Origin: Apostichopus japonicus
Lineage: Eukaryota > Echinodermata > Holothuroidea > Aspidochirotida > Stichopodidae
Direction: 5' to 3'
DNA: 64,000 bases
NCBI RefSeq assembly: GCF_037975245.1
Contig: NC_092569.1
Span: forward strand, 1,715,501-1,779,500
Positions 1-62,809 of the stretch are shown here, piece by piece (position 1 is the stretch's first letter; each line of letters opens with the position of its first letter). A program made the position numbers and the translations under genes. The notes beneath the pieces were generated by a model, which had not been told where the DNA came from, did not search any database, and saw only the letters and a list, made by a program, of their open reading frames with translations.

Positions 1-658
1 AGATCTTAATAGATAGCTAGGAACTGTAACCAACTGTTTTATTTTAGTTGCTTTATAGAGGAAAGTGGAGATCATCTGCTTAAGCCCTGTGTCCAATGAA
101 TAGTTTATTAAAACCGTAATAGCCGCAAGGAAATAACACCACAATCACTTCTCTTGACAGATTGATAGATCTTGATAGATAGCTAGGTACTGTAACCAAC
201 TGTTTTATTTTAGTTGCTTTATAGAGGAAAGTGGAGATCATCTGCTTAAGCCCTGTGTCCAATGAATAGTTTATTAAAACCGTAATAGCCGCAAGGAAAT
301 AACACCACAATCACTTCTCTTGACAGATTGATAGATCTTGATAGATAGCTAGGTACTGTAACCAACTGTTTTATTTTAGTTGCTTTATAGAGGAAAGTGG
401 AGATCATCTGCTTAAGCCCTGTGTCCAATGAATAGTTTATTAAAACCGTAATAGCCGCAAGGAAATAACACCACAATCACTTCTCTTGACAGATTGATAG
501 ATCTTAATAAATAGCTAGGAACTATAGCCAACTGTTTTATTTTAGTTGCTTTGTAGAGGAAAGTGGAAATTAGCTGCTTAAGCCCTGTGTCCAATGAATA
601 GTATATTAAAACCGTAATAGCCACAAGGAAATAACACTACAATCACTTCTCTTGACAG
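1..658. repeat. 166-bp tandem array ending at an exon acceptor
   Basis: Four copies with an exact 166-bp period; the array continues off the left edge. Each unit ends tctcttgacagATTGA, identical to the acceptor plus first five exon bases of the visible exon 1. Earlier copies therefore place decoy AGs ending at 160, 326 and 492, with the true one at 658. The fourth copy is the most diverged. Confidence 0.95.
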
Positions 659-811
659 ATTGACGAGGTGAAGATTCTCGGTAAAGATAGATACCTGGTT
701 GCTCATACCACAGAGACGCTGCTCTTGGGGGATCTCGCTTCCAACAAACTCAGCGAAGTACCCTGGCCAAACACAGGTGGCAACGAAAAGTTCTTCTTTG
801 AGAACGAAAGT
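659..811 (+). CDS. IFT172: IFT172 visible exon 1
   Basis: Residues 1-51 of the visible part, phase 0 at both ends, WD40 region with [16 protein letters not shown]. The acceptor tctcttgacag is the last copy of the 166-bp array that precedes it. The donor is gtgagt. Confidence 0.95.
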
Positions 812-3800: not shown

Positions 3801-6800
3801 TACCGGGTATGTCATCAATATATACCGGGTATTTCATCAATATATACCGGGTGTGTCATCAATATATACCGGGTGTGTCATCAATATATACCGGGTATGT
3901 CATCAATATATACCGGGTATGTCATCAATATATACCGGGTATGTCATCAATATATACCGGGTATGTCATCAATATATACCGGGTATGTCATCAATATATA
4001 CCGGGTATGTCATCAATATATACCGGGTATGTCATCAATATATACCGGGTATGTCATCAATATATACCGGGTATGTCATCAATATATACCGGGTATGTCA
4101 TCAATATATACCGGGTATGTCATCAATATATACCGGGTATGTCATCAATATATACCGGGTGTGTCATCAATATATACCGGGTGTGTCATCAATATATACC
4201 GGGTGTGTCATCAATATATACCGGGTGTGTCATCAATATATACCGGGTATGTCAGCCAAATCACAGTCATGCCACCCACACCAATATAAGTTACATCACA
4301 TCCGATATAACAGTAGCATTACTGATGACGTAATATTTTATGTCATCCATATATGATAGTTCTGATAATAATCTTTATACAGTCATAATGTGTTCTGTTA
4401 TTCAGTAGAACTGAGTTTAACAAACCTCCAAAGAATCATATTTTACATTATCACTGCTAGCTGTTTGATGTCTATTCTTAATGACCTCTGACTCCATTAC
4501 ATTTATAAATCTCATTGCCAGAGTTTATGTACTTCTTAATTTGATGACCAAAGCTTCCTTCCGCAGTATAACAAGGACAATGGTCTAGTTGTCCGTTGTC
4601 AAGAAACAAAACAAATCACCATGGCTGCATTTCCCTCTCTTTCTATTATTATGATTATTATGATTATTATTTTATTTTTATTTTTATTTTTTTGTAGGGC
4701 GACATAGTAGATTTAGAGAGAGTGGATGGTAAGACAGATGTGATTGTCAGTGAGGGAGTCACGTCCATCTCGTACACCTTAGACGAGGGCCTGATAGAAT
4801 TTGGAACAGCCGTGGACGATGGAAACTACACCAGGTAAAAATCAGGATCATTTAGAGCCAGTTTGCAAAATCTAGCGATATTCAAATAGAGACCAGTTGC
4901 AGATTTGCATATAATAGGAAACCTTCAAATTTTACGAATCTTTCTCGAGCTGAAAATGGATGACATGGTGCCAGGATGGTGTGAGAGGATTGAATCTGGG
5001 GGTCAAAGACATAGAGGGGTTATTGGGGCATTTGTCAGAAAAAGGGGCACTTATTATTTATAAAAAGAATTGGGCACCTTTCAGTATTTTACAGAATTGG
5101 GGGCACATGAATATGCCACAAGCTCAACCACTCCTTCATTCAACAAATGGTCACTTTTAGTTGAACAAAAAAAAGCGTACATTTCATTTACGAGAAAGAG
5201 CGCTTTTCGTTATAACAAAATGGAAAGTTTAGTTGAGGGAACAAGATTTTTGTAGAATTTAGGCATCAAAAGTGGTGCACTTTTCCAATTGTAGCATTTG
5301 TTGCTCTTTTCCATTCCAGCTCTCAATTTTGTGGGCATTGTTCACTATTTTACATTTTTCTTGACTTAAATGCTTGTTACATATAGTTACCAGTTTTCCT
5401 TTTTATTGGTTGTAAGTCTTTTGTTTTTTGTCAATCTTCTTTCAGAGCTGTTGCATTCCTGGAGACGCTGGAAATGACTAACGAGACTGAAGCAATGTGG
5501 AAGACTTTAAGCAAGCTTACTCTCGACGCCAGACAATTGAACATCTCAGAGAGATGTTTTGCTGCCCTCGGTGACGTTGGAAAAGCACGATACCTTCAGA
5601 GCCTCAACAAAATGGCTGCTCCGATAAGTCAGGAAACGGTAGGTTTATAGAGTTAAACACCCAACTCTTGAATTGATTTTTTAGATTTGTTCGCACATTT
5701 GTTCTTTATGTTGAGACACGCACTTCTTAAACCACTGACGTGACTGACCTCTTGTTTATTCATATAAATGACTGAAATATTTAGCGATAAAACACTGTTA
5801 TCAAAGACTGCTTATGTACTGCAAAAAGCCTGTGTAGGTTGTAAATGTATAAACTAGAGGGCCTGCATTTCAAACCAAGGCAAACGGAAACAAACACAGC
5901 TTAGACTACATTAAAAATAGACAGATTGACGGACAACTAAACTGGACCAATGCTCTCTAACTTATACAATGATATATGAAGTCAAACATGTCCCTCAAGC
6001 TAAACTGGACCAATGCCCTCTAACTGATACAATGATATATGTATTAAAACATGTCATTCAAGCTAAACTGGACCAATGCCCTTTAACTAATACAATGATA
6101 TATGTAGTAATTCATGTCCCTCAAGCTAAACTGGACCAATGCCCTCTAACTAATACAATGATATATGTAGTAATTCATGTCACTCAAGCTAAACTGGACC
6201 AATGCCCTCTAACTGATACAATGATATATGTATTAAAACATGTCACTCAAGCTAAACTGGACCAATGCCCTCTAACTAATACAATGATATATGTAGTAAT
6301 TCATGTCACTCAAGCTAAACTGGACCAATGCCCTCTAACTGATACAATGATATATGTATTAAAACATGTCCCTCAAGCTAAACTGGACCAATGCCCTCTA
6401 ACTAATACAATGATATATGTAGTAAAATATTATAGCAAAACATGTCACTCAAGTTTTTGAAGAATATTAGTAATAAATAGTCAAGTTCCATGTTTTGTTA
6501 GAGTCAAAGTGAATCCAAAATTATCATTTTGAAAAATTTTCACTTTGTGTTGCGCTATTTTAGCGGCTCTATTAGAAGGAGATGAGAATAAAAATAAGGG
6601 ATTTCAGCTTGGCTGGAATAACTCTTGGCTATACAGTGTTATATATGTCTCTCCATTTCCTTTGACCTGACAGGGTGAAGACGGCACAAACCATTACACG
6701 ATCAGGGCCAAACTAGCCATCTTGAAAAAGGACTTTCAGGAAGCAGAGAGGATTTACTTAGAGCAGGTAATAATCCAGTTTAATGTTCAGTTATAGAGTT

Positions 6801-9800
6801 ATAGATAATTATAGAGTTATAGATATAATTCAGGAAGCAGAGAGGATTTACTTAGAGCAGGTGAATGGTCCAACAAATTTAATGTTCAGTTATAGATAAA
6901 TATAGAGTTATAGATATAATTCAGGAAGCAGAGAGGATTTACTTAGAGCAGGTAATGGTCCAACAAATTTTAATGTTCAGATATATATAATTATAGAGTT
7001 ATAGATATAATTCAGGAAGCAGAGAGGATTTACTTAGAGCAGGTAATGGTCCAACAAATTTTAATGTTCAGTTATAGATAATTATAAAGTTATAGATATA
7101 ATTCAGGAATCAGAGAGGATTTACTTAGAGCAGGTAATGGTCCAACAAATTTTAATGTTCAGATATATATAATTATAGAGTTATAGATATAATTCAGGAA
7201 GCAGAGAGGATTTACTTAGAGCAAGTAATGGTCCAACAAATTTTAATGTTCAGATATATATAATTATAGAGTTATAGATATAATTCAGGAAGCAGAGAGG
7301 ATTTACTTAGAGCAGGTAATGGTCCAACAAATTTTAATGTTCAGATATATTTAATTATAGTGTTATAGATATAATTCAGGAATCAGAGAGGATTTACTTA
7401 GAGCAGGTAATGGTCCAACAAATTTTAATGTTCAGATATATATAATTATAGAGTTATAGATATAATTCAGGAATCAGAGAGGATTTACTTAGAGCAGGTA
7501 ATGGTCCAACAAATTTTAAAGCAGCATTTTGCGTCCTTTTCTATGATTTTTCTCAACCTCACTGACTCCACTATGCCATAACGACATACATAACTAGCTT
7601 ATCTATTTAAATCTTACTTCATATGGTGGCATAAAAGTCGAAAAATTTGCAACTTTCAACTTTGTTTTTCTCCAAGATAATTACCGTTAGAACCCAATAA
7701 ACCTCGCCCATAATATGAATATTTAAACACTGTGAACGTCATTGACCAATACGTAACCCAACACCAAGCTTGATTTGTGTACAGTCTATATGGTAGTTGT
7801 ACCAGAGAGTTCCATTACATCTCCCTGGTTGTACCAACGCAAAGTCTTGAATCTATTTTTAGCAATGGCTCATAACTAAACCTGCATCTCTGATTGGTTG
7901 AATTCAAACTAGTGGGTTTGGCGGAACTGTATGCGATTAATTTTAACTGTGGAATTTGTCGAGGACACTCTTCTCATTATCTGCAAATATCCTTAATTAC
8001 TCGCCAATTATCGTTGTTTTACAGGGAAAAACTTGGCTAATATCTTAGTTTGCTGTTTTGTGATTGATATAAATTGATGGACATGTCAAAAAAGTAGAAA
8101 ACGGCGACCAAACGCAAAATGCTGCTTTAATGTTCAGATATAGATAATTATAGAGTTATAGATATAATTCAGGAATCAGAGAGGATTTACTTAGAGCAGG
8201 TAATGGTCCAACAAATTTAATGTTCAGTTATAGATAATTATAAAGTTATAGATATAATTCAGGAATCAGAGAGAATTCACTTAGAGCAGGTAATGGTCCA
8301 ATAGAGTTTAATGTTTTGTTTATAGAGTTATAGATAATTATAGAGTTATAGATAATTAATATAGATAATTAGTAAGTTATAGATAATAACCTAGTTATTA
8401 TACAGTACAGCTTCAAATAAAAAGTAACAGAATTGACTACTTTGTAACTTATAAATATGCAAATGTTTGTTGTCAGGTGTTTCACATTGCCTGTGTTACA
8501 TTGTTATGAGAATTTAATTCAAAGATTGCGACACCTTCTACCCCATCCCTCCACATCCACCCTCTCCCTCCACCCCCGTCTCTTCAGACTTAATTGAATT
8601 CCTCATGAATTCCGGCAATACAGCCACATAACACATCGGTGTTTTTTTTTTCTCTCTCTCTCTCTCGTTTCCCAGAATGCAATTGATGAGGCGATGGAGA
8701 TGTACCAGGAGCTACATAAATGGGACGACGCCATCGCTGTAGCAGAGGCAAAGGTCAGTATAAAAATTAATTATTCTTATTATTATTTATTATTATTATA
8801 ATTATTAAATATTATAATTTATTTATTAAAGATACTCAAAGTACACAAATCTCATAACTTTCATTCATAATTCTGAATTTTGCGACATATTTCTGGTTCA
8901 TACATCTATGTTATCCGGTTTGTTTTATCGATGCTCGATGCATCACAGGGTCACCCGGAGCTCGAGACCCTCCGTCAGAACTACTACCAGTGGCTGATGG
9001 AGACAGGCCAAGAGGAGAAAGCCGGTGAGCTCAAGGAGAACGAGAGAGATTTCCACGCAGCAATCAACCTCTACATGAAGGCATCGATGCCGGCCAGAGC
9101 AGCTAGACTGGTCACGACCAACGAAGAACTCATGAATAATAAAGACCTAATCGCAAGAATTGCTGCCTCTCTGATTAAAGGAGAATTCTACGAGAAGGTA
9201 AGCTAGATCACTCTGGACTCAGTTTTCCATTTGCGTTTACCCATTGGTTGTATCTCAGATGGTAATTTGTGGTGGTGGTGAAAATGTTGGTGAATTTCAT
9301 TAATATTTCTTGGTCAATGTCACCTTTAGCCAGGGCGAGAAACAACCAACTTTCAAAATTGATGTAATTCAGGGGTCTGCAAGTAATTTCCTGAAATGAC
9401 ATCAGTTGGAGCAAAGGGCCAGAGAGCACTAAAATGTGCCTTTTCCTAGAATGAGCAAGTCAAGTAGGCCTTAGGGGCCTGCATACTTGATAAATGTAAG
9501 TCTTAGTGGATCAGAGTTGGGATGACATAAGAATTGTCTTTATTTATTTCATCCGTCATTCACATTTTGCACTTATTTTTTCTTTCTTTTCTGTTTGGTT
9601 TAGGCCGGAGAGCTCTTTGAAAAGACCTGGGAGGAGGCTAGAGCCTTGGAATGTTACAGAAAAGGTCATTCCTATCGAAGAGGTTTGTAGCCATAGCAAC
9701 TGTTTGTGCTTTCAATTCCGAAAATTTTTACAATCTTTCAACAATTGATGAGTTTAGTTAAGTTTATCATGTTATCATTTGCTTTTCGGAAAACTGTTTA

Positions 9801-15800: not shown

Positions 15801-18800
15801 GAATTCATCAAAGCTGGAAAACCAAAGGAAGCTGTACTCATGTAAGTCTTATAAATTTGGGTTTGAACTGCTGGTGTACACTGGCATAGATAGACAAACT
15901 TTCCCACAAACTTTATTTTATTGAATTATAGATTACATGGACTTGCCTTTTATCTTTTAGATGAATGGAAAGCCTATATATTTTTTCATATTTTTACAAG
16001 AGAACTGGCACTGTTTTGAACTACTTTTATAGAAGAAAAATAAGACAAACTTTCCCACAAACTTTATTTATTAAATTATAGATTAGATGGACTTGCCTTT
16101 TATCTTTTAGATGAATGGAAAGCCTATATATTTTTTTCATATTTTTACAAGAGAACTGGCACTGTTTTGAACTACTTTTATAGAAGAAAAATAAGACAAA
16201 CTTTCCCACAAACTTTATTTATTAAATTATAGATTAGATGGACTTGCCTTTTATCTTTTAGATGAATGGAAAGCCTATATATTTTTTTCATATTTTTACA
16301 AGAGAACTGGCACTGTTTTGAACTACTTTTATAGAAGAAAAATAAGACAAACTTTCCCACAAACTTTATTTATTAAATTATAGATTAGATGGACTTGCCT
16401 TTTATCTTTTAGATGAATGGAAAGCCTATATATTTTTTTCATATTTTTACAAGAGAACTGGCACTGTTTTGAACTACTTTTATAGAAGAAAAATAAGACA
16501 AACTTTCCCACAAACTTTATTTATTAAATTATAGATTAGATGGACTTGCCTTTTATCTTTTAGATGAATGGAAAGCCTATATATTTTTTTCATATTTTTA
16601 CAAGAGAACTGGCACTGTTTTGAACTACTTTTATAGAAGAAAAATAAGACAAACTTTCCCACAAACTTTATTTATTAAATTATAGATTAGATGGACTTGC
16701 CTTTTATCTTTTAGATGAATGGAAAGCCTATATATTTTTTTCATATTTTTACAAGAGAACTGGCACTGTTTTGAACTACTTTTATAGAAGAAAAATAAGA
16801 CAAACTTTCCCACAAACTTTATTTATTAAATTATAGATTAGATGGACTTGCCTTTTATCTTTTAGATGAATGGAAAGCCTATATATTTTTTTCATATTTT
16901 TACAAGAGAACTGGCACTGTTTTGAACTACTTTTATAGAAGAAAAATAAGACAAACTTTCCCACAAACTTTATTTATTAAATTATAGATTAGATGGACTT
17001 GCCTTTTATCTTTTAGATGAATGGAAAGCCTATATATTTTTTTCATATTTTTACAAGAGAACTGGCACTGTTTTGAACTACTTTTATAGAAGAAAAATAA
17101 GACAAACTTTCCCACAAACTTTATTTATTAAATTATAGATTAGATGGACTTGCCTTTTATCTTTTAGATGAATGGAAAGCCTATATATATTTTTCATATT
17201 TTACAAGAGAACTGGCACTGTTTTGAACTACTTTTATAGAAGAAAAATGATCTGAGAGATGTTTTTTTGGATTCAATTTATTTTATATATGTCATTTTAT
17301 CTAAGGTACGTTCACAATCAAGACTGGGACTCCGCTCAGAGAGTGGCCGAGTCTTTCGACGCAGACAGCGTGTCGGATGTCTTGGTCGGTCAGGCCAGGA
17401 GTGCCTTTGAACAGAAAGAATTCCAGAAAGCAGAGTCCTACCTTCTGCGAGCACAGAGACCTGAATTAGCCATTAAACTCTACAAGGTTTGTGGTCATTG
17501 CATTGGTTTGGGTGAACAATGTTAATATCATGCTAAAGATTGGATTTGCATTCAATTATCTTGCCTGGACGGTCTCCAAAGTTGAAGTTGTACGTACTCA
17601 CTAGATTACGAGTATGAGTACGTACTCGTTAGAACAGGAATATGAGTATGGATGCACTGCAATATGCTGCGATATACCTTTACTCATCACACATAGTAAC
17701 ATTTCATGTGGCGTCCTTACCTTATCTCTTATACAGAATGTTGAGATGGGGAAATCTCCTTGGTATGAGTACAAGGTTCTAGGCATGAAGTTGATTACTG
17801 AATTTTGTGCTAGTTCCTATTAATATGAGTAAGGACACAAATCTAAAAGTAAGGACTAACTGCAGTCTGCTGCGATACACTATCATTGACTTCACGGAAT
17901 AATATCTGACGTGGTATCTCATTCTCTTCTGTCTTATTCAGAATGCTGAGATGTGGCAGGATGCTCTGAGAGTTTGTAAGGAGTACATCCCTCATAAACT
18001 ACAGTCACTACAAGATGAATATGACAGGGAGGTCCTCGACAAAGGCACAAAGTTAGTATCTGCCCCCCCCCCTCCCTCACTCCCTCAACCAACCCCATTT
18101 TCATATTCAATTTAAGCTTCCAGTGATGGTCAGAGGAGTCCTCTGTGGATGTGGTAGTTTTGAAAGTTTGTAATTTTCATTACAGTTATTTCTATGCTTT
18201 GTAACATCTGCATTGCTCTGCTGTTGGAAGTGAGTGCTTTCACCTCCTAGTATATTTGAAGAGGTGGGCAGGTGATACTAGAGTACATTCCTGTTTTTTA
18301 GATAGGTGGTCTTATGCTGGAGGTCAAAAGGTAAAAAAAAAAACCCAGTAAAAAGGGTGTCAGCATAAATTTCGAAATGATAATGAATTGGATCTGTGTT
18401 CATAATAATTCTTTTTCACAAACACACAAGAAAGGCTTGATATTTAGCCAGTGTTCTTCCAAGAACTTTATGAATGAAGTTTATAAGGAGCTAATGGATG
18501 GTCGTGTTATCCTTGGGTTTCTAAACAAAACTGAAACAAAAGATCTCCATTTGTAACTGGTGAATCGATTGGTTCATCCTGTCCTCTAAGTACCAACGTG
18601 TGTTAAAAATTTCTCCTTCTGAAGTAATACCTTAGTAGGACTAAGTGTCTGGCATCGAGAAACCGTGGATTGTGATAACAGTCACATGATTCAACATAAC
18701 TCTCGCTACAATAAGCTACTTCAAAAGGATTGTCTGGTAGCCCTAAGATTTTACCTTAAAAAACGATAAATAGTTTATTTATAATAGGCAATCTTCTGTG

Positions 18801-21800
18801 CGTGTACACACGAGAGTGTATTTGCTGCGGAAATAGGAGTGCTAACTACAAATCGCTCGTTTTGCCTATTTGCCTGCACTACGTTAATCACCAAATTGAT
18901 GCATTCGAACAAAACGGTGCTTTTGGTGAGAAACTGTTGAATTTGAAAACCATATTTCTACAAGAAGAAAACGTCGATTGGGGACAATTTTCATGTGGTT
19001 AGAAAGAGAAAAATAATAACTACAAGGACAGTGTATCAAAATCTTCCACCAGACAATTCCTTTAAACCTGAATTTCATTTGTCTCTCTCTCTCTCGTTCA
19101 CTCAGAGGAGTAGAGACTTTGATCAGTCAGGCCAAGGAATGGGAGGCATCAGGAGAGTACTCCAGAGCAGTCGATTGTTATCTCAAAGTCACCCAACGAC
19201 AGACCTCAGATACGAGGGTTCTAGAACAATGCTGGTCAAAGGTCAGTCAATTGTCTTCACCGAGTGGATAGTAAATATCACCCTGTTCAACCTTCATTGA
19301 TTGGGATTAAAATGTATAGAAATTTAAGAGAAGAATTTTTATAAATGCTAAGAAAGCAAATATATTATATGGTGTACAAGAGTGCAATAATTCCTTTTTG
19401 CTTTTGGGTGGTCATATGGCTTGGCTGCCTTTCATTGGGGGTGGGAGGGGTAGGGAGGGGTGGGTAGCCATCAGGCAATTGCTTGTAAACTGAGTAGTGA
19501 ATATGCTAGTGAAATTAAGATGTTCCTGGTGTTTCCAGAAATGTTTTTTGCACGAATGGTGATGAGAACACATTTTCAACCATTTATTTTGCTGCATTTG
19601 AAAATACAATATTTTTCTGCTGATGGAAACATTGCAATTTGTCAACTTTCATTCTTTCTTTCTTTATTATTTAATTTTTCAGGCTGCTCAGCTGTCGATG
19701 AAGTTTTTGGATTCGTCTAAAGCAGCAGACGTAGTGCAGATAGTGGGACCTAAACTAGCAAATATTGAAAAGTACAACACCGTAAGTTTGTATTATGCTA
19801 CAGTTAGTACAACACCATAAGTTTGTATTATGCTACAAAATAGTACAACACAGTAAGTTTGTATTATGCTGCAGATAATACAACACCGTAAGTTTGTATC
19901 ATGCTACAAAATAGTACAACACAGTAAGTTTGTATTATGCTGAAGATAATACAACACAGTACGTAAGTTTGTATGATACTACAAAATAGTACAACACAGT
20001 AAGTTTGTATTCTGCTGCAGATAATACAACACCAAAAGTTTGTATGATGCTACAAAATAGTACAACACCATAAGTTTGTATTATGCTACAAAATAGTACA
20101 ACACAGTAAGTTTGTACTATGCTAAGATTAGTACAACACCATAAGTTTGTATGATACTACAAAATAGTACAACACACTAAGTTTCTATTCTGCTGCAGAT
20201 AATACAACACCAAAGTTTGTATTATGCTACAAAATAGTACAACACCATAAGTTTGTAGTATGGTACAGATTAGTACCACACAGTAAGTTTGTATTATGCT
20301 AAGATTAGTACAACACCATAATTTTGTATTCTGCTTCAGATAATACAACACCGTAAGTTTGTATTATGCTACAAAATAGTACAACACAGTAAGTTTGTAT
20401 TATGCTAAGATTAGTACAACACCATAAGTTTGTATTCTGCTGCAGATAATACAACACCGTAAGTTTGTATTATGCTACAAAATAGTACAACACAGTAAGT
20501 TTGTATTGTGCTAAGATTAGTACAACACCATAAGTTTGTATTCTGCTGCAGATAATACAACACCGTAAGTTTGTATTATGCTACAAAATAGTACAACACA
20601 GTAAGTTTGTATTGTGCTAAGATTAGTACAACACCATAAGTTTGTATTCTGCTGCAGATAATACAACACCATAAGTTTGTATTATGCTACAAAATAGTAC
20701 AACACAGTAAGTTTGTATTATGCTGCAGATAATACAACATCGTAAGTTTGTATTATGCTACAGTATCCTGTAAGGTTGTGAATCAACCTGTACATTCTTC
20801 ACTATACATCCAGTGTACATCTCAGAAATAATAAACAGATACCCTGGAGTATTGCTTCATAATGGAAACGGATAACATAAACAATGTATAGAGCTTAATT
20901 TTGTAGGCTTGACTCTGAAATAACAAGCAGGTACTTGTATTTGTTTATTCTAAACTTGAAATGTGGTTTTCAGAATGAAAGTCAAGGTTCAAAGTGTGAT
21001 ACTTCTTCAATTTAATGCAGTCTTTAATTAATTAACTAAATAATTAATACAGTGGGAATAAAAAATTTTCAACGTTGATTTGGCCATATAACTTCACCAG
21101 TTTTTAGCACAGAGAAATAAACTTTTCTCAAAGTCCTTCAGCCATACTGGTCTCACACTAAGATTGATGCTTTTAATTTCAAATCTTGTATCATTTTCAT
21201 GTAGATGCTCTTGAATAACGTTGTTGTCCCCACAAAATTGAGTTGGAACTCATAAACTTTGACCGCTTCGTCAGACTGCACCTTATCCTACTTTCTTCAG
21301 ATCAAATATCGTAACCCACAAGTGAAACATATCCAGCTGCTTACAACCTATAAAATGCAGTACCTCCAAGATTTTGCTGTGCAACTTTATACCTGTTATT
21401 AAACATTGTAGCAAGAAACTTGCTCACCCACATGTTCACAATTTTAATATTGTCAATAATCTGCTGTCACGTTTCATTCAGGCCGCAGAGCTGTACCTCG
21501 GTACGGATCTGATCAAGGAAGCCATCGATGTGTTAATGGCCGGAGGAGAGTGGAACAAGGCTAAGAAGGTAGCCAAGGAACTGGAACCGCGGTATGAACG
21601 TTACGTGGACGAAAAGTACAAGGAACATCTGAAGAACGAAGGCAAAGCTGAGTCTGTGAGTAAACGTTATCATTGTCATGTATTTTATGTTGTGTAGTTA
21701 AATGTGACCTATTGTATGTTCTGGTTATAATGTACTGTTTTGGAATGCTATTGACTTGTGATCTAAGGATTACAGGTTCTAGCCCTGGCCAGATCATTGC

Positions 21801-32065: not shown

Positions 32066-33943
32066 TCATAAAAAGTTATTGGCACCTCGAATGACACCAT
32101 CAAAGTTCTTTTCATGCGGATTGCTTCCACGTGGCCTTTGGGAGAGTATAGAAGGCACATGGGGGTGTCTGGATAATGAAAGGGGTGCGCTCGCTGGGTT
32201 TGGTAGATGCCCGCGGTTGGTAGGATGGGAGTGTATAGAGTCCATGCTCTTAATGAGATGGGAGTGTATCTTTCCTAACTTGTACCCATTGAACGGGCCA
32301 GAGCGTTCCCCCCAAAAGTTTGTCGGGTGAGATTGTTGAACATGGCCGACGGGGCTGTTATGTCTTTGGAAGATGTTTAATTCTGCTCCAGAATTTGCAT
32401 TCAAAATTTCCAGTTTTCGCATAAACGGGTCCGCACCATTTCCATCGTCTTCCCGGATCTCGGTTTGGAAAAATCGCTTCCCTTGATAGTTTGGTGTACG
32501 AGCCTCTTGATGATGAGTACGGGGACAGTTGCCATGGTGATCCATGTAGCGAAGACAACGACAAGTTTCACTTTTTGTCCTCTTCGGCGTTTTATGTGAG
32601 TTTCCATGGACTGATTGTAAGTTGGTTACAGGTTTCCCTGACCTTGTGTGCATATTCAATCGAGAAGCCCACACTCCAGATGTGCTTTCTAAAGTCGTTT
32701 TATCGATTGGTCGTCTTCTGTCATGTGACCAAAATATCAGAGTTTTCACCCCTGCAGGTGTAGTGGTGTTACCCTGCTCGTATCCTCCCGAAGTCAACCT
32801 CCTTGAAACATTTTCGAGATGAAGTTGCGAAAAGCATTTCGGGTGTAATCTCGTGGCATTAAGTTGTCCTCTTAATTCTGTATTTTCGCGATTTTGCCAG
32901 AATTTTAGCGAGACTTTACTAGTACTTGACAAATTGTGTATCCTTTCGGTTATTGTCACCTTCGGTACATGGAGAGAAAATTCGCTCTCAGAGTCACTTT
33001 CGGTGGGATTATTGACAATTTTCGGGAAATGCTCGATTTCCTTTTCGACCTCATCATCATCATTGCCATTTTCCAGATCTTCGGTTTCTTGTTCAAATTC
33101 TTCAATATTTTCGGAACTTTCGGAAGGAACTTTCGGAATGTCACAGACATTTAATTCCGGTCCAGGTTCCGTCTGGCTAGCTCGAGTTTGAAAAGTCAAT
33201 TTTGACTCATTCGGCGTGTCATGCAAGGTTGATGTCTCTTCAGGATGGTTGCCTGGTGACGGGATCTCTTCGTTTACGTCACGATTTCTTTCAGCCGATA
33301 AGGCGGCAACCTCAGGTAGATCGTACTCCGCTTCCATCAGTTCACTGTTCCCTAAATTCGAAGCCTCCACACGTCCTGAACTGTACGGCTTGTACTGGTA
33401 AAGTGAGTTTGCGCAGAAAGAAATACTGGAAAGAGAAAAACAAAAATGTCTTATCTTAGCCATCTAAATATGACGTGACCTTCAATATAAAGAAGTAAGA
33501 AATATCCAATGCTTGACCAGGATATTGAGTTCAGTGGAACGTCCTGTTATTCAAAAAAAAAATTAATTGATTGCCAACCGGCATAACGTATAAGCTCACA
33601 GCTATTCAGAAGTTTCTCTTCATACAAACTAAAAACTATTCTCAATTTAGATTCTTTACATTGACAGGCGTTCGCTGAAACATATTTACATTGTCCCAAG
33701 TAAATACAATGAAACCAGTCATGTTTCTTTCTTTTTCGTTTTGTCTTCTATTTTTTTTTTCTTGAGAATATGACAAATATGGTTAATTGTCTCTGAAAAC
33801 AACTCATTTCTCAGCAATTTCACATGCGATTTCCGTTTGTGACGGTCGGGCGTATACTGCAGTTCAACACGGTATTTAGGAACAATATTTAATTTACCAT
33901 ACACTCACAAAGAACTGTTAAAGATTGGACAAAGCGTCACCAT
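32066..33943 (-). CDS. uncharacterised protein, two-exon model
   Basis: I do not recognise this protein. The reverse strand has an unusually long ORF (465 codons) in an otherwise stop-rich region. A good acceptor (tttctctttccag) lies just inside its 5' end. A donor (TTT|gtgagt) upstream follows a 35-nt segment with an ATG, and the phases match. The spliced product is 464 residues: exon 1 33943-33909 (MVTLCPIFNSS), intron 33908-33426, exon 2 33425-32066. The first about 25 residues are fairly hydrophobic, possibly a weak signal sequence. Residues 118-146 are strongly acidic (EFEQETEDLENGNDDDEVEK). The C-terminal half is basic and rich in His, Asn, Ser and Arg, with KTPKRTK near 290. No known domain or transmembrane helix seen. 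Base composition is richer in CpG than the flanks. Alternatively translation starts at an ATG at 33463 without splicing. Tail-to-tail with IFT172. Confidence 0.55.
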
Positions 33944-51653: not shown

Positions 51654-53715
51654 TGGTCAATTCCATGATAAGGTCAACATCATACCAAAAAATTTAAAAT
51701 CATTGTACATTAAAATTGTATAAGTTTCCAATAAATAGAATACTTGTAGTTACTAAAAATAATTTTTTCACCCCCAAAACCTCATTTGTTTGATTATGGG
51801 GTCGGTAATAACAAATGGTTCCCGTAGAAACTAAATTATGAAAAATACAGTGAAATTTCATTTTGTGCAGATTTGTACATAGTAATCATAGGTATCATCA
51901 GTTTTTTGGACTAATTATATTTGCTATAGCATAGTGCTCACTTTTTAGCTTCAATTTTTTTTCTACATCAAGGCATTAGACAGTAGTGGTGAATTGAAAA
52001 CACCCTCGATTTACTGTCACGCGAGTCACAAAATTTACTGTTTTTGTTTTTTTTCTCCTTGCCTGCACAATATTTTTTCTCCAAATAATGAATATCAAGT
52101 CTTCACATAGATACCAAAAGGATTACTGAATTTCCCTTTCCAGAAGATATTCAAATTTTGCGGAAAATCACCCTTTACGAATGTCACGCGAGTCACGTCA
52201 CGCGAGTCACGTCAATTCAAGATAGTGTTTCTACCTATTAACTGTGTGTTGGACTAATTATATTTGCTATATAGCATAGTGCTCACTTAATAGCTTCAAT
52301 TTTATTTTGACATCAAGGCATTAGACAATAGTGGTAAATTGAAAACAGTAAACATCCTTGATTTACTGCCACGTGAGTCACAAAATTGACTTTTTTTGTT
52401 TTTTTCTCCTTGCCTGCACAAAAGTTTCACTCCAAATAATTAATTTCAAGTCGTCACATAGATACCAAAAGGATTACTGAATTTTGCTTTTCAGAAGATA
52501 TTCAAATTTTGCAGTAAATCACCCTTTACGAATGTCACGCGAGTCACGTCACGCGAGTCACGTCAAATCAAGATAGTGTTTCTACCTATTTACTGTGTGA
52601 AAATTACAGGGATGTTATAGTTTGATAAATGAATCACTGATTAAAGATATCATATGCATTCCCCTTTAATTAGGCAACTTGAATAAAATGGGCACACATA
52701 ATGCAACTAATTACAATAATTTTATTTGAAATATCAGAATTTAAAATCATGAATATTTATTCGCAATATGCCTATTTTATCACCACATTTGAAAAGTTAG
52801 CACATGTCATTGATTTTTTAGTAATATACAAAAACATAATCTAAATTTGTATCTGGCAATGCCATGTGCTATGACTTGACAACCTTTAGGTTTTAACTGC
52901 TCAATCATTCCCAAAATCCTATGAGGGAATGTATCTTCTCAAATATTACACTTTTGGTTTATTCAAATATGATAAATGAGAATGGTAATTTGAATCACAT
53001 TTTGATAGATCTCTTTCTTCTATAGCTCTCAAATGAGTGACTTCAACAGACTAAATATTGTTATAAATATTAATTGACAAGATATATTGCCTGAACAACT
53101 GTACTACCCGTACAGTATGTTACCTTCTGTCTGCAATCATGAAGGTAACTCGGGGACATTAATATCATCTGGACATTAACAAGGGAAGTACCTTTTGGAC
53201 ACTTTCTAGACCAATGAATGTTATATTTCACTTTGCAAGATCAATACCTTCGATTCATTACTGCATTTGGTCTAGAACTATCCGAAAAGTGAACTTGTCA
53301 CGCGAGTCACGTTTTCTTGTCACGCGAGTCACAATACATCTTCCTCATTATTTTCATGCGTTACAACATTTTTTCAAAGTTGCATAGCAATTGAGGTAGA
53401 GGTGTTTTTCAACTTCGGTATGATTATAAAAATTGATTGGAAATATTTTAGTAAGACATAAGAAATCGAACATTTGTGTGTGTATTCTGATTTTTGCTGA
53501 TAGTAACTGTCACGCGAGTCACGTTTAGTTTTTCGCCAATTTCACCCCCAATACTTGAGGTATAAATATTTTTTCTCTACTGTTGTAAGCATTAAGGCGT
53601 TCCTTCACTGCTACATGAATGCTTTTCTCCCAGGTAATTTCTTTATTTGTTTAATGATATCAAATAGAGAGGAATTTTAGTAAAAATGTCACGCGAGTCA
53701 CCATGGAATTGACCA
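51654..53715. mobile_element. 2.06-kb TIR element with ten internal GTCACGCGAGTCAC motifs
   Basis: Ends TGGTCAATTCCATG and its reverse complement, flanked on both sides by TATA (TSD TA or TATA; the shared inverted block with flank is 19 bp, 51649-51667 and 53702-53720). Nine exact copies of GTCACGCGAGTCAC plus one variant (52368-52381) all point the same way. An internal 343-bp direct duplication (51908-52250 and 52251-about 52600) includes three of them each. No ORF of note, hence non-autonomous. Superfamily not assigned. Confidence 0.85.
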
Positions 53716-57739: not shown

Positions 57740-58091
57740 AATTTACACAGTGCGTTCATGACAGCCAAGTGCATGATACATTTATGTGACCATGGTCTGC
57801 TATCTTGGTTCCTGTGACAGTGTGTTGTATGTGCACTGCATATTCATGACAGCAGCCAATATCATGGTACATTTATGTGACCATTGTCTGTTATGTTTGT
57901 TCCTGTGACAGTGTGTTGTATGTGCACTGCATATTCGTGACAGCAGCCAATATCATGATACATTATGAGACCATGGTCTGCTATCTTGGTTCCTGTGACA
58001 GTGTGTTGTATGTGCACTGCATATTCATGACAGCAGCCAATTGCTTGCTACATTATGTGACCATGGTCTGCTATCTTGGTTCCTGTGACAG
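57740..58091. repeat. 90-bp tandem repeat
   Basis: About four copies; cctgtgacag starts at 57811, 57902, 57992 and 58082 (spacing 91, 90, 90). The unit contains ttgtatgtgcactgcatatt and gaccatggtctgctatcttg. Confidence 0.93.
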
Positions 58092-60230: not shown

Positions 60231-62809
60231 TGTGTGTGTGTGTCTGTGACACTTGCTTGGGTACGCTCTATCTCATTAAGGGAATGTTGGATTGAGGCCA
60301 AACTTGGACTATAGATCCGCCATATGGAGAAGGTGTGCCCTATTGTTTTTGGTGCCCACAAAGGTCACCAAAGGTCAGTTATGGTCCAAAAACCGAAAAT
60401 ATTAAAACTGCAATAACTCCCAGTGCCAATGTGCGACAAGATCGATATTTTGGGAAAAGTTGTTAACTGGTTAGGGGAACATTTTCAAACTTAACGGTCA
60501 TGTGATCCGAGGTCACCAAAGGTCAATTAATGATAAAAAACTAGTTTTTTTGCGATAACTTGAGAACGAAATGTCCGTTAGGGTTGGGAGTTGCTTCAAT
60601 GTTATCCAATTGTTGACCCGCATCTGGGTGACCCTTGACCTCAATTTGACCTCTGGTGACCTTTACGTGTTTTTGGGGAATTTTACAGTTTTGATGCTAT
60701 TTTCAGATGTCAAAGGTACCTTCTGATCATAAAAGTCAAAGGGTTGACCCCGTGTGACCTTTATGTGCGAAGTTATATGGGGTCAAAGTTTTTCGGTCCG
60801 AGTTAGGATGGTTGTACAGACTTTTCGTTTTGTTTTTTGGAATCAGGAGATTAAACTTCATCTGAAACCAAGGTCAAAAGGTCAAAGGTCACATTAGAAA
60901 AAATGTGCTTATTTTGGGAGGAAACGAGCAAAAAAGAAAATGTTTGGTTTTGATGCTAGATTTGGATATCAAAGGTACCTTCCGATCAAAAATGTCAATT
61001 GGTTGACACCCGTGTGACCTTCGTGTGCGAAGTTATACGAGGTCAAAGTTAATTTTCAGACATTTAATGCAACAACTCCCAGTTCCAAGGTGTGACATGG
61101 TTGATATTTTTGGACAAGTTGCAAATGGTATAGGGGAATATTTTCAAACTTAACGGTCATGTGATCCGAGGTCACCAAAGGTCAATTAATGTCAAAAAAC
61201 TAGTATTTTGGGGGTAGAAAATGGGCAAAGAAAAAAATGTTTGATTTTTTATAGTTTGATGCTCTAATTTAGGTCTCATCAATCAAAAATGTCAATAAGT
61301 TGACCCAAGGTGACCTTTGTATGTTAAGTTATATGAGGTCAAAGTTAATTTTCAGACATTTAGTGTAATAACTCCCAGTGCCAAGGTGTTACACGGTTGA
61401 TATTTTGAAACAAGTTGCAAATGGTATAGGGGAATATTTTCAAACTTAACGGTCATGTGATCCGAGGTCACCAAAGGTCAATTAATGATAAAAAACTAGT
61501 ATTTTTGCGATAACTTGAGAACAAATTGTCCATTAGGGTTGGGAGTTGCTTCAATGTAATCCAATTGTCGACCCGCATCTGGGTGACCCTTGACCTCAAT
61601 TTGACCTTTGGTGACCTTTTTAGTGTTTTGTGGATTTTTACAGTTTTGATGCTATTTTCAGATGTTAAAGGTAACTTCTGATCATAAATGTCAATGGGTT
61701 GACCCCCGTGTGACCTTCGTGTGCGAAGTTATATGAGGTCAAAGTTAATTTTCAGACATTTAATGCAATAACTCCCAGTTCCAAGGTGTGACAAGGTTAA
61801 TATTTTTGGAGTAGTTGCAAATGGTATAGGGGAATATTTTCAAACTTAACGGTTATGTGATACAAGGTCACCAAAGGTCAATTAATGATAAAAAACTAGT
61901 ATTTTTGCAATAACTTGAGAACAAAATGTCTGTTAGGGTTGGGAGTTGCCTCAATGTAATCCAATTGTCGACCCGCATCTGGGTGACCCTTGACCTCAAT
62001 TTGACCTCTGGTGACCTTTCCGTGTTTTGGGGATTTTTACAGTTTCGATGCTATTTTCAGATGTCAAAGGTAACTTCTGATCATAAATGTCAATGGGTTG
62101 ACCCCCATTTGACCTTCGTGTGCGAAGTTATTTTAGGTCAAAGTTAATTTTCACACATTTAATGCAATAACTCCCAGTGCCAAGGTGTGACAAGGTTGAT
62201 TTTTTTGGACAAGTTGCAAATGGTATAGGGGAATATTTTCAAACTTAACGGTTATGTGATCCAAGGTCACCAAAGGTCAGCTAATGTTAAAAAAGTAGTA
62301 TTATGGGGGGAGAAAATGGGCAAAGAAAAAATGTTTGAATTTTTACAGTCATGCTCTATTTAGGTCTCACCGATCAAAAATGTCAATTGGTTGACCTCCG
62401 GGTGACCTTTGTGTGTGAAGTTACATACAAGTTCAAAGTTAATTTTTTGACATTTAATGCAATTAAATCTCAATGCCAAGGTGTGACATGGTTGATATTT
62501 TGGGACAAGTTGTGAATGGTGTGGTGGAACATTTTGAAACTTAAAGGTCATGTCATCTGAGGTCACCATTGTTATCATATCTGTTGACACGCTTGTAGGT
62601 CTCTTATATTTCTAACATTTTCGACGCCATATTTAGATCTCAAAAATGCCTTTTAATAAAAAATCCGATCACATTTTGTGATCACAAAAGTGTTGGCTAT
62701 AGTGTTGGTTTCTTTATGGGAACATGTAGGACCACAATTACTTGGACTATTTCAGCCCAATCTTGCTTGATAATATATGTGTATTGTCATATACCCCAAG
62801 CAAGGAACC
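60139..62809. repeat. complex tandem repeat, dense in AGGTCA half-sites, GGTTCCTTGC ends
   Basis: Bounded by GGTTCCTTGC (60139-60148) and its reverse complement (62800-62809). After a (GT)n tract, long blocks recur at roughly 300-400-bp and mixed higher-order spacing: aacttaacggtcatgtgat (60492, 61148, 61444 and, as ggttatg, 61844 and 62244), acccgcatctgggtgaccc (three times), gtgtgcgaagttat (several). About 37 AGGTCA/TGACCT hexamers by eye. Confidence 0.85.
60182..60244. repeat. (GT)n microsatellite
   Basis: About 30 GT dinucleotides with a few GTAT interruptions, near the left end of the AGGTCA-rich element. Confidence 0.97.

Follow-up and report, generated by a model that had tools for sequence, protein, structure and literature searches.

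Minisatellite arrays across exon-intron boundaries of IFT172 and other genes in the sea cucumber Apostichopus japonicus

Minisatellite-like repeats whose unit extends across an exon-intron boundary have been described in amphioxus as "mirages" (PMC3087553, PMC3902484). In these accounts, both 5' and 3' boundaries are affected, the copies carry AG or GT, one authentic copy lies at the exon and the arrays are unstable in length, with units of 10–72 bp in Adh3 and 150–160 bp in the globin genes (PMC3087553, PMC3902484); PGBD5 and troponin C have been added as further cases (PMC3902484), and regular splicing was reported to be undisturbed (PMC3087553). Here we describe an array of 91-bp units, called array B, in the IFT172 gene of the sea cucumber Apostichopus japonicus, together with two sister arrays (A and C) in the same gene. 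The locus lies in a window of 64,000 nt (positions 1,715,501 to 1,779,500 of the forward strand of contig NC_092569.1, assembly GCF_037975245.1). A ferritin exon of this genome is identical to the A. japonicus entry PDB 7vhr_A at 89 of 90 aligned residues. Array B is tandem, its unit spans the boundary and contains the splice signal, and its copies keep AG or GT; in these features it corresponds to the boundary minisatellites of the mirage type.

The gene occupies the plus strand of the window. A peptide joined from three of its exons matched PDB chain 8bd7_S ("Intraflagellar transport protein 172") with an E value of 7.8e-46, and the best stretch of 133 residues runs without a gap across the junction of the exon under study with the next one, as would be expected if the exon-side donor is used. 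With human IFT172 as query, tblastn located exons spanning human residues 14 to 1749. The splice model comprises 37 introns, the shortest of 179 nt. The exon at the head of array B was numbered 8 in an earlier note on this DNA; it is indeed the eighth within the window and the 14th of the gene model. Its donor reads CAG/GTAATA, with the GT at 6767.

The unit of array B is made of the last 32 nt of this exon, the donor and 59 nt of intron, and is present in 11 copies, one true and ten decoys. Tandem Repeats Finder (TRF) detected the 91-bp period in two parts, one at 6735-7519 with 8.6 copies and 94% matches, the other at 8126-8315. The decoy GTs are placed at 6861, 6952, 7043, 7134, 7225, 7316, 7407, 7498, 8200 and 8290; GT is kept in all ten and CAG/GT in nine, and the donor is GTGAAT in the first decoy and GTAATG in the other nine. 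A search of the 35-contig genome (671,581,487 bases) with the unit returned 12 matches, all within array B, although the search skips very common words and this count is therefore no proof of uniqueness. An origin of the unit from a dispersed repeat was also considered and is unsupported, all 12 returned matches lying at the array; only the 607-bp insert described below is dispersed.

The earlier note had seen the 3' end of the exon and its donor repeated every 91 bp, with ten decoy GTs between 6861 and 8290, and both TRF and the unit alignment bear this out. The array is not the continuous run that it took it for, since the 607-bp element interrupts it. The decoy donors were called near-consensus, in agreement with the scores given below, where nine of the ten fall within the range of the 37 modelled donors of the gene. 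The decoy at 7225 was rightly singled out from nine that read CAG/GT, but it reads CAA/GT, through a G-to-A change at position −1, rather than aag. Use of any decoy GT would, as proposed, bring an in-frame TAG into the mRNA, at codon 10 past the true donor and not at about codon 18. That decoy use brings a stop is valid for simple alternative donors; the note overlooked a latent micro-exon route that is open without a stop. That account was also incomplete in that the inserted element, sister arrays A and C and the latent 27-nt exon were absent from it.

The element that splits one unit of array B has inverted ends of 15 bp (19 nt counting the TTAA). When its flanks are joined, a 91-nt unit is recovered that has a single mismatch to the neighbouring one. 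A first look at the genome gave 1653 candidate copies; the 40 that were scored, the element itself included, are 92–100% identical, and TTAA flanks all three copies read, namely the array copy and two others. The TTAA duplication, the inverted ends, the large number of copies in the genome and the lack of a long open frame mark the insert as a miniature inverted-repeat transposable element with a TTAA target, and by this target site it may be linked to piggyBac. Its presence in one unit only indicates that the array already had units on both sides before the element arrived.

Two further splice sites of IFT172 lie within arrays of the same design. Array A starts upstream of the window and occupies its first base; its eight upstream acceptor copies retain the AG, with an almost unchanged tract. 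Array C, when read with a 36-bp unit, comprises 27 decoy units. In total, three of the 12 arrays of the gene (period of at least 20, at least two copies, the two stretches of array B taken as one) span a splice site, where uniform seeding would give 1.65 (p = 0.23), in a gene that was itself chosen for one of its arrays. Arrays represent 26% of the modelled intron sequence of IFT172. A 151-bp array at 15892-17248 (nine copies, 99% matches) fills most of the intron 15842-17305 and leaves its splice sites untouched.

The local strength of true and decoy sites was compared with a rough score matrix derived from the gene's own sites in the 37 modelled introns, the tested site being left out. For array B the matrix gives 7.2 to the true donor (rank 18 of 37), 9.2 to the first decoy, 5.3 to eight further decoys and 1.6 to the remaining one. 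The true donor of array C has a score of 4.2, which places it at rank 35 of 37, below nine decoys with 6.2. In array A the true acceptor scores 7.6 and the decoys 7.1 to 7.6. The true site is not favoured by local score. Since some decoys outscore the real site, the choice would not be decided by local strength; moreover, a score of at least 5.3 is reached by 7.7% of the 1783 intronic GTs of IFT172, array copies included, so that good-looking unused sites are common.

The occurrence of such arrays in other genes was surveyed on 82 exon matches from three Pfam families, ranked by family score and blind to repeats: the best 28 of 81 listed matches for dynein AAA_6, the best 28 of 70 for the myosin head and the best 26 of 57 for TCP-1/cpn60 (CCT). 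The flanks covered about 1.5 kb on each side, arrays were sought at most 60 bp from the match edges, and exon ends were mapped for part of the 82. Arrays over exon ends were found at seven of the 82 matches, in dynein, myosin and CCT genes. This corresponds to 7/158 exon ends (4.4%), or 7/164 with the six ends of L077, L080 and L081, three matches in one intronless frame that were dropped. In sister arrays A and C and in all seven survey arrays, the real splice site is in the exon-side copy. Three of the seven junctions (L014, L028 and L011) were confirmed by in-frame joining, L014 and L028 having three copies each; those of L009, L034, L065 and L069 were placed from where the family match ends, at a canonical site. 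L069 holds 38 copies downstream of the true donor, and its decoys (GTAGTA, compared with GTAAGT at the true site) look weaker. The arrays of L071, L073 and L085 lie near but not over a splice site and were left uncounted, and that of L008 is the array of L011, counted once.

Arrays make up about 10% of the sampled sequence. If the 65 distinct arrays were seeded uniformly over the 221 kb, 2.35 spanned ends would be expected, and seven were observed (p = 0.01), the expectation falling to 1.77 and 1.58 at cut-offs of 2.5 and 3 copies, respectively. The excess is only suggestive, because this null ignores the exclusion of arrays from coding exons, which would raise the expectation somewhat. Within the limits of a small sample, these figures suggest that arrays spanning splice sites are no rarity in this genome; since the three families are all conserved, the rate need not apply to all genes.

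The exon-derived and intron-derived parts of the units have diverged equally. Over ten arrays, mismatches amount to 115/1730 cells in the former and 326/4939 in the latter, 6.6% in each case, and no selection on the exon-derived part was seen in this comparison. The splice dinucleotides of the decoys carry 15 mismatches, compared with a mean of 19.3 in random adjacent columns (p = 0.44, column permutation over the same arrays), a test in which no selection against decoy dinucleotides was seen.

Taken together, these observations make it very probable, in our judgement, that array B is a minisatellite born across an exon-intron boundary, whose intron copies drift neutrally while the exon-side copy is the one in use. 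In this scenario a segment of about 91 bp straddling the IFT172 boundary would have been duplicated in tandem, and the array would have grown through slippage or unequal exchange. The exon-side copy would stay the real exon end, held in place by the protein, and the intron-side copies would keep the donors copied with them and drift like the remaining unit, a neutrality that would extend beyond the comparison of exon and intron parts. The choice of the exon-side site would depend on position and exon context, that is, on exon definition from the upstream acceptor and on the order of synthesis, and not on donor strength; these cues are proposed because of known splicing rules. The same process may have captured the two other IFT172 splice sites and, judging from the small sample, about 4% of exon ends.

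Several points weigh against this interpretation. Leaving out array C, a split made post hoc, the dinucleotides show one mismatch compared with a mean of 13.6 (p = 0.026). A cruder count, with array C included, leans the same way, with 7/224 mismatches at dinucleotides and 436/6663 elsewhere (Fisher p = 0.037). Both would fit a role for the copies. The column permutation was preferred because the cruder count assumes that related copies are independent and treats array C as made of 71-bp double units. The seven spanned ends, compared with 2.35 expected, are unexplained by plain chance capture. Finally, use of the exon-side site in the mRNA is something that we infer.

A broader reading of the survey would be that splice sites are preferred birth places of minisatellites (about 4% of ends, some three times the uniform expectation) and that the spliceosome picks the exon-side copy despite equal or better decoys, up to 38 of them per sampled array. 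"Equal or better" refers here to the three IFT172 arrays, in which decoys were scored. We regard this reading as tentative and rather doubtful.

The copies might alternatively serve as latent or regulated micro-exons. Each unit would offer an acceptor (ATAATTCAG/GAAG), a 27-nt exon in phase 0 encoding EAERIYLEQ or a close variant, and a donor, adding nine residues for every unit used. The 27-nt stretch is indeed open and in phase in all ten decoy units, nine of the ten donors score in the range of true donors, and a comparable model was proposed for amphioxus globin introns (PMC3087553). However, the latent acceptor scores only 1.5, a value below which just three of the 37 true acceptors fall and which 23% of 1603 other intronic AGs reach; unit-to-unit introns would measure 64 nt, far from the 179 nt of the shortest modelled intron, and the exon-derived part is no better conserved than the remainder over the ten arrays. 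Given this poor acceptor, micro-exon use is held to be unlikely.

A second possibility is a function that maintains the copies: they might, for example, provide additional U1 binding sites that would help to define the exon or slow splicing of the intron. GT or AG is kept in 98 of 99 decoys outside array C, and it is there that the post hoc split found the dinucleotides better kept than random columns. Over all ten arrays, in contrast, the dinucleotides are unremarkable, GTAAG persists in only 15 of the 27 decoy units of array C, and young homogenised arrays would retain most columns regardless. A functional role of this kind appears improbable.

In the AGGT model, intron gain starts from an AGGT within an exon, whose duplication yields a new intron. 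The earlier note had proposed that the array may be an intermediate of this process; the unit does carry AG/GT, and in potato a duplication crossing a boundary made a new intron (PMC4974935). At array B, however, the duplicated AG/GT is the old boundary and no AGGT inside the exon; all copies lie inside one existing intron, and the junction has no added residues relative to the IFT172 protein of 8bd7_S, so the proposal is not supported and we consider this route very unlikely. An assembly artefact is scarcely credible even though repeat arrays are a common site of assembly errors, because the units differ by substitutions, a dispersed element splits one of them cleanly, the pattern recurs at other loci and, if the assembly is the one described in PMC10344927, it was built from PacBio HiFi reads, which should be long enough to cross an array of 1.6 kb.

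Table 1. Coordinates of the IFT172 features in the window and of the survey arrays over exon ends.
Feature	Position	Strand	Details
Sister array A, 166-bp unit, 8.9 copies	1..663 in window (L004:8198-9663 = window −802 to 663)	+	Last copy with true acceptor 658/659
IFT172 exon, first 5 nt inside array A	659..811	+	Splice model
IFT172 exon (8th in window, 14th of model)	6674..6766	+	Last 32 nt, 6735-6766, are the true first copy of the exon-derived array part
Array B, first stretch	6735..7519	+	True unit 6735; decoy units 6829, 6920, 7011, 7102, 7193, 7284, 7375, 7466 (7466 cut by insert)
Latent 27-nt in-frame exon, example (EAERIYLEQ)	6834..6860	+	Between ATAATTCAG and GTGAAT
Inserted non-coding element, 607 bp	7520..8126	.	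Flanked by TTAA (7516-7519, 8127-8130); ends inverted; longest open frame 52 codons
Array B, second stretch	8127..8348	+	Remainder of interrupted unit, then decoy units 8168, 8258 (8258 diverged; TRF end 8315)
Next IFT172 exon	8676..8753	+	Acceptor CCCAG/AATGC
IFT172 exon, last 11 nt and donor (GT at 19782) inside array C	19683..19781	+	Splice model
Sister array C, unit of about 35 bp	19771..20762	+	Last 11 nt of exon and GTAAGT donor repeated; donor 19781/19782
Survey arrays over acceptors	L009, L011		TRF near family-match edges
Survey arrays over donors	L014, L028, L034, L065, L069		TRF near family-match edges

Outside IFT172, the window contains arrays at 51906-52599 (351-bp unit), 57772-58091 (90 bp) and 61282-62302 (400 bp). 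Five other open frames in the window, among them one of 465 codons at 32066-33463 on the minus strand, were compared with Pfam and gave no family at E 0.01.

Human IFI6 (6-16) reportedly owes the description of its multiple-donor minisatellite to Turri, Cuin and Porter (1995), and its unit is said to be short, about 12 nt. Later papers cite this minisatellite with multiple splice donors (PMC4526556, PMC2572611), and two downstream repeat units are stated to be used as donors (PMC4526556). The likeness to IFT172 is that tandem units past the exon offer several donors in both genes; the difference is that units are stated to be used as donors in IFI6, whereas any use of a decoy in IFT172 would bring the stop at codon 10. 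The potato RdRp gene (PMC4974935) shares with IFT172 a duplicated segment across an intron-exon boundary, but there a new intron is spliced, whereas the IFT172 copies lie in an existing one. In human segmental duplications, variable internal tandem repeats occur at exon-intron boundaries (PMC2812944). They resemble the IFT172 array as minisatellites at such boundaries and differ from it in acting on recent paralogs, where they can give rise to new introns supported by transcripts; the IFT172 array is described from genome sequence.

Searches for echinoderm and sea cucumber cases in a library of open-access papers found no report of such arrays, and no genome-wide frequency is given in the accessible parts of the amphioxus mirage accounts (PMC3087553, PMC3902484). 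The kind of structure is already known from amphioxus, and the host, an echinoderm, and the frequency may be new. A single real splice site beside near-identical copies is a natural experiment on spliceosome choice between equals. Should arrays occupy a few percent of exon ends, existing RNA sequencing data could yield the position rule across many genes; at the sampled rate, if it is general, splice-site competition would be open to natural tests in thousands of genes. The IFT172 array agrees with the mirages in its boundary-spanning unit, its AG/GT copies and its authentic exon copy, with a unit length of 91 bp bracketed by theirs. It differs in its host, an echinoderm and not a cephalochordate, in the presence of three arrays in one gene and in a frequency based on a sample, and a structure described in amphioxus would thereby be found in another deuterostome phylum.

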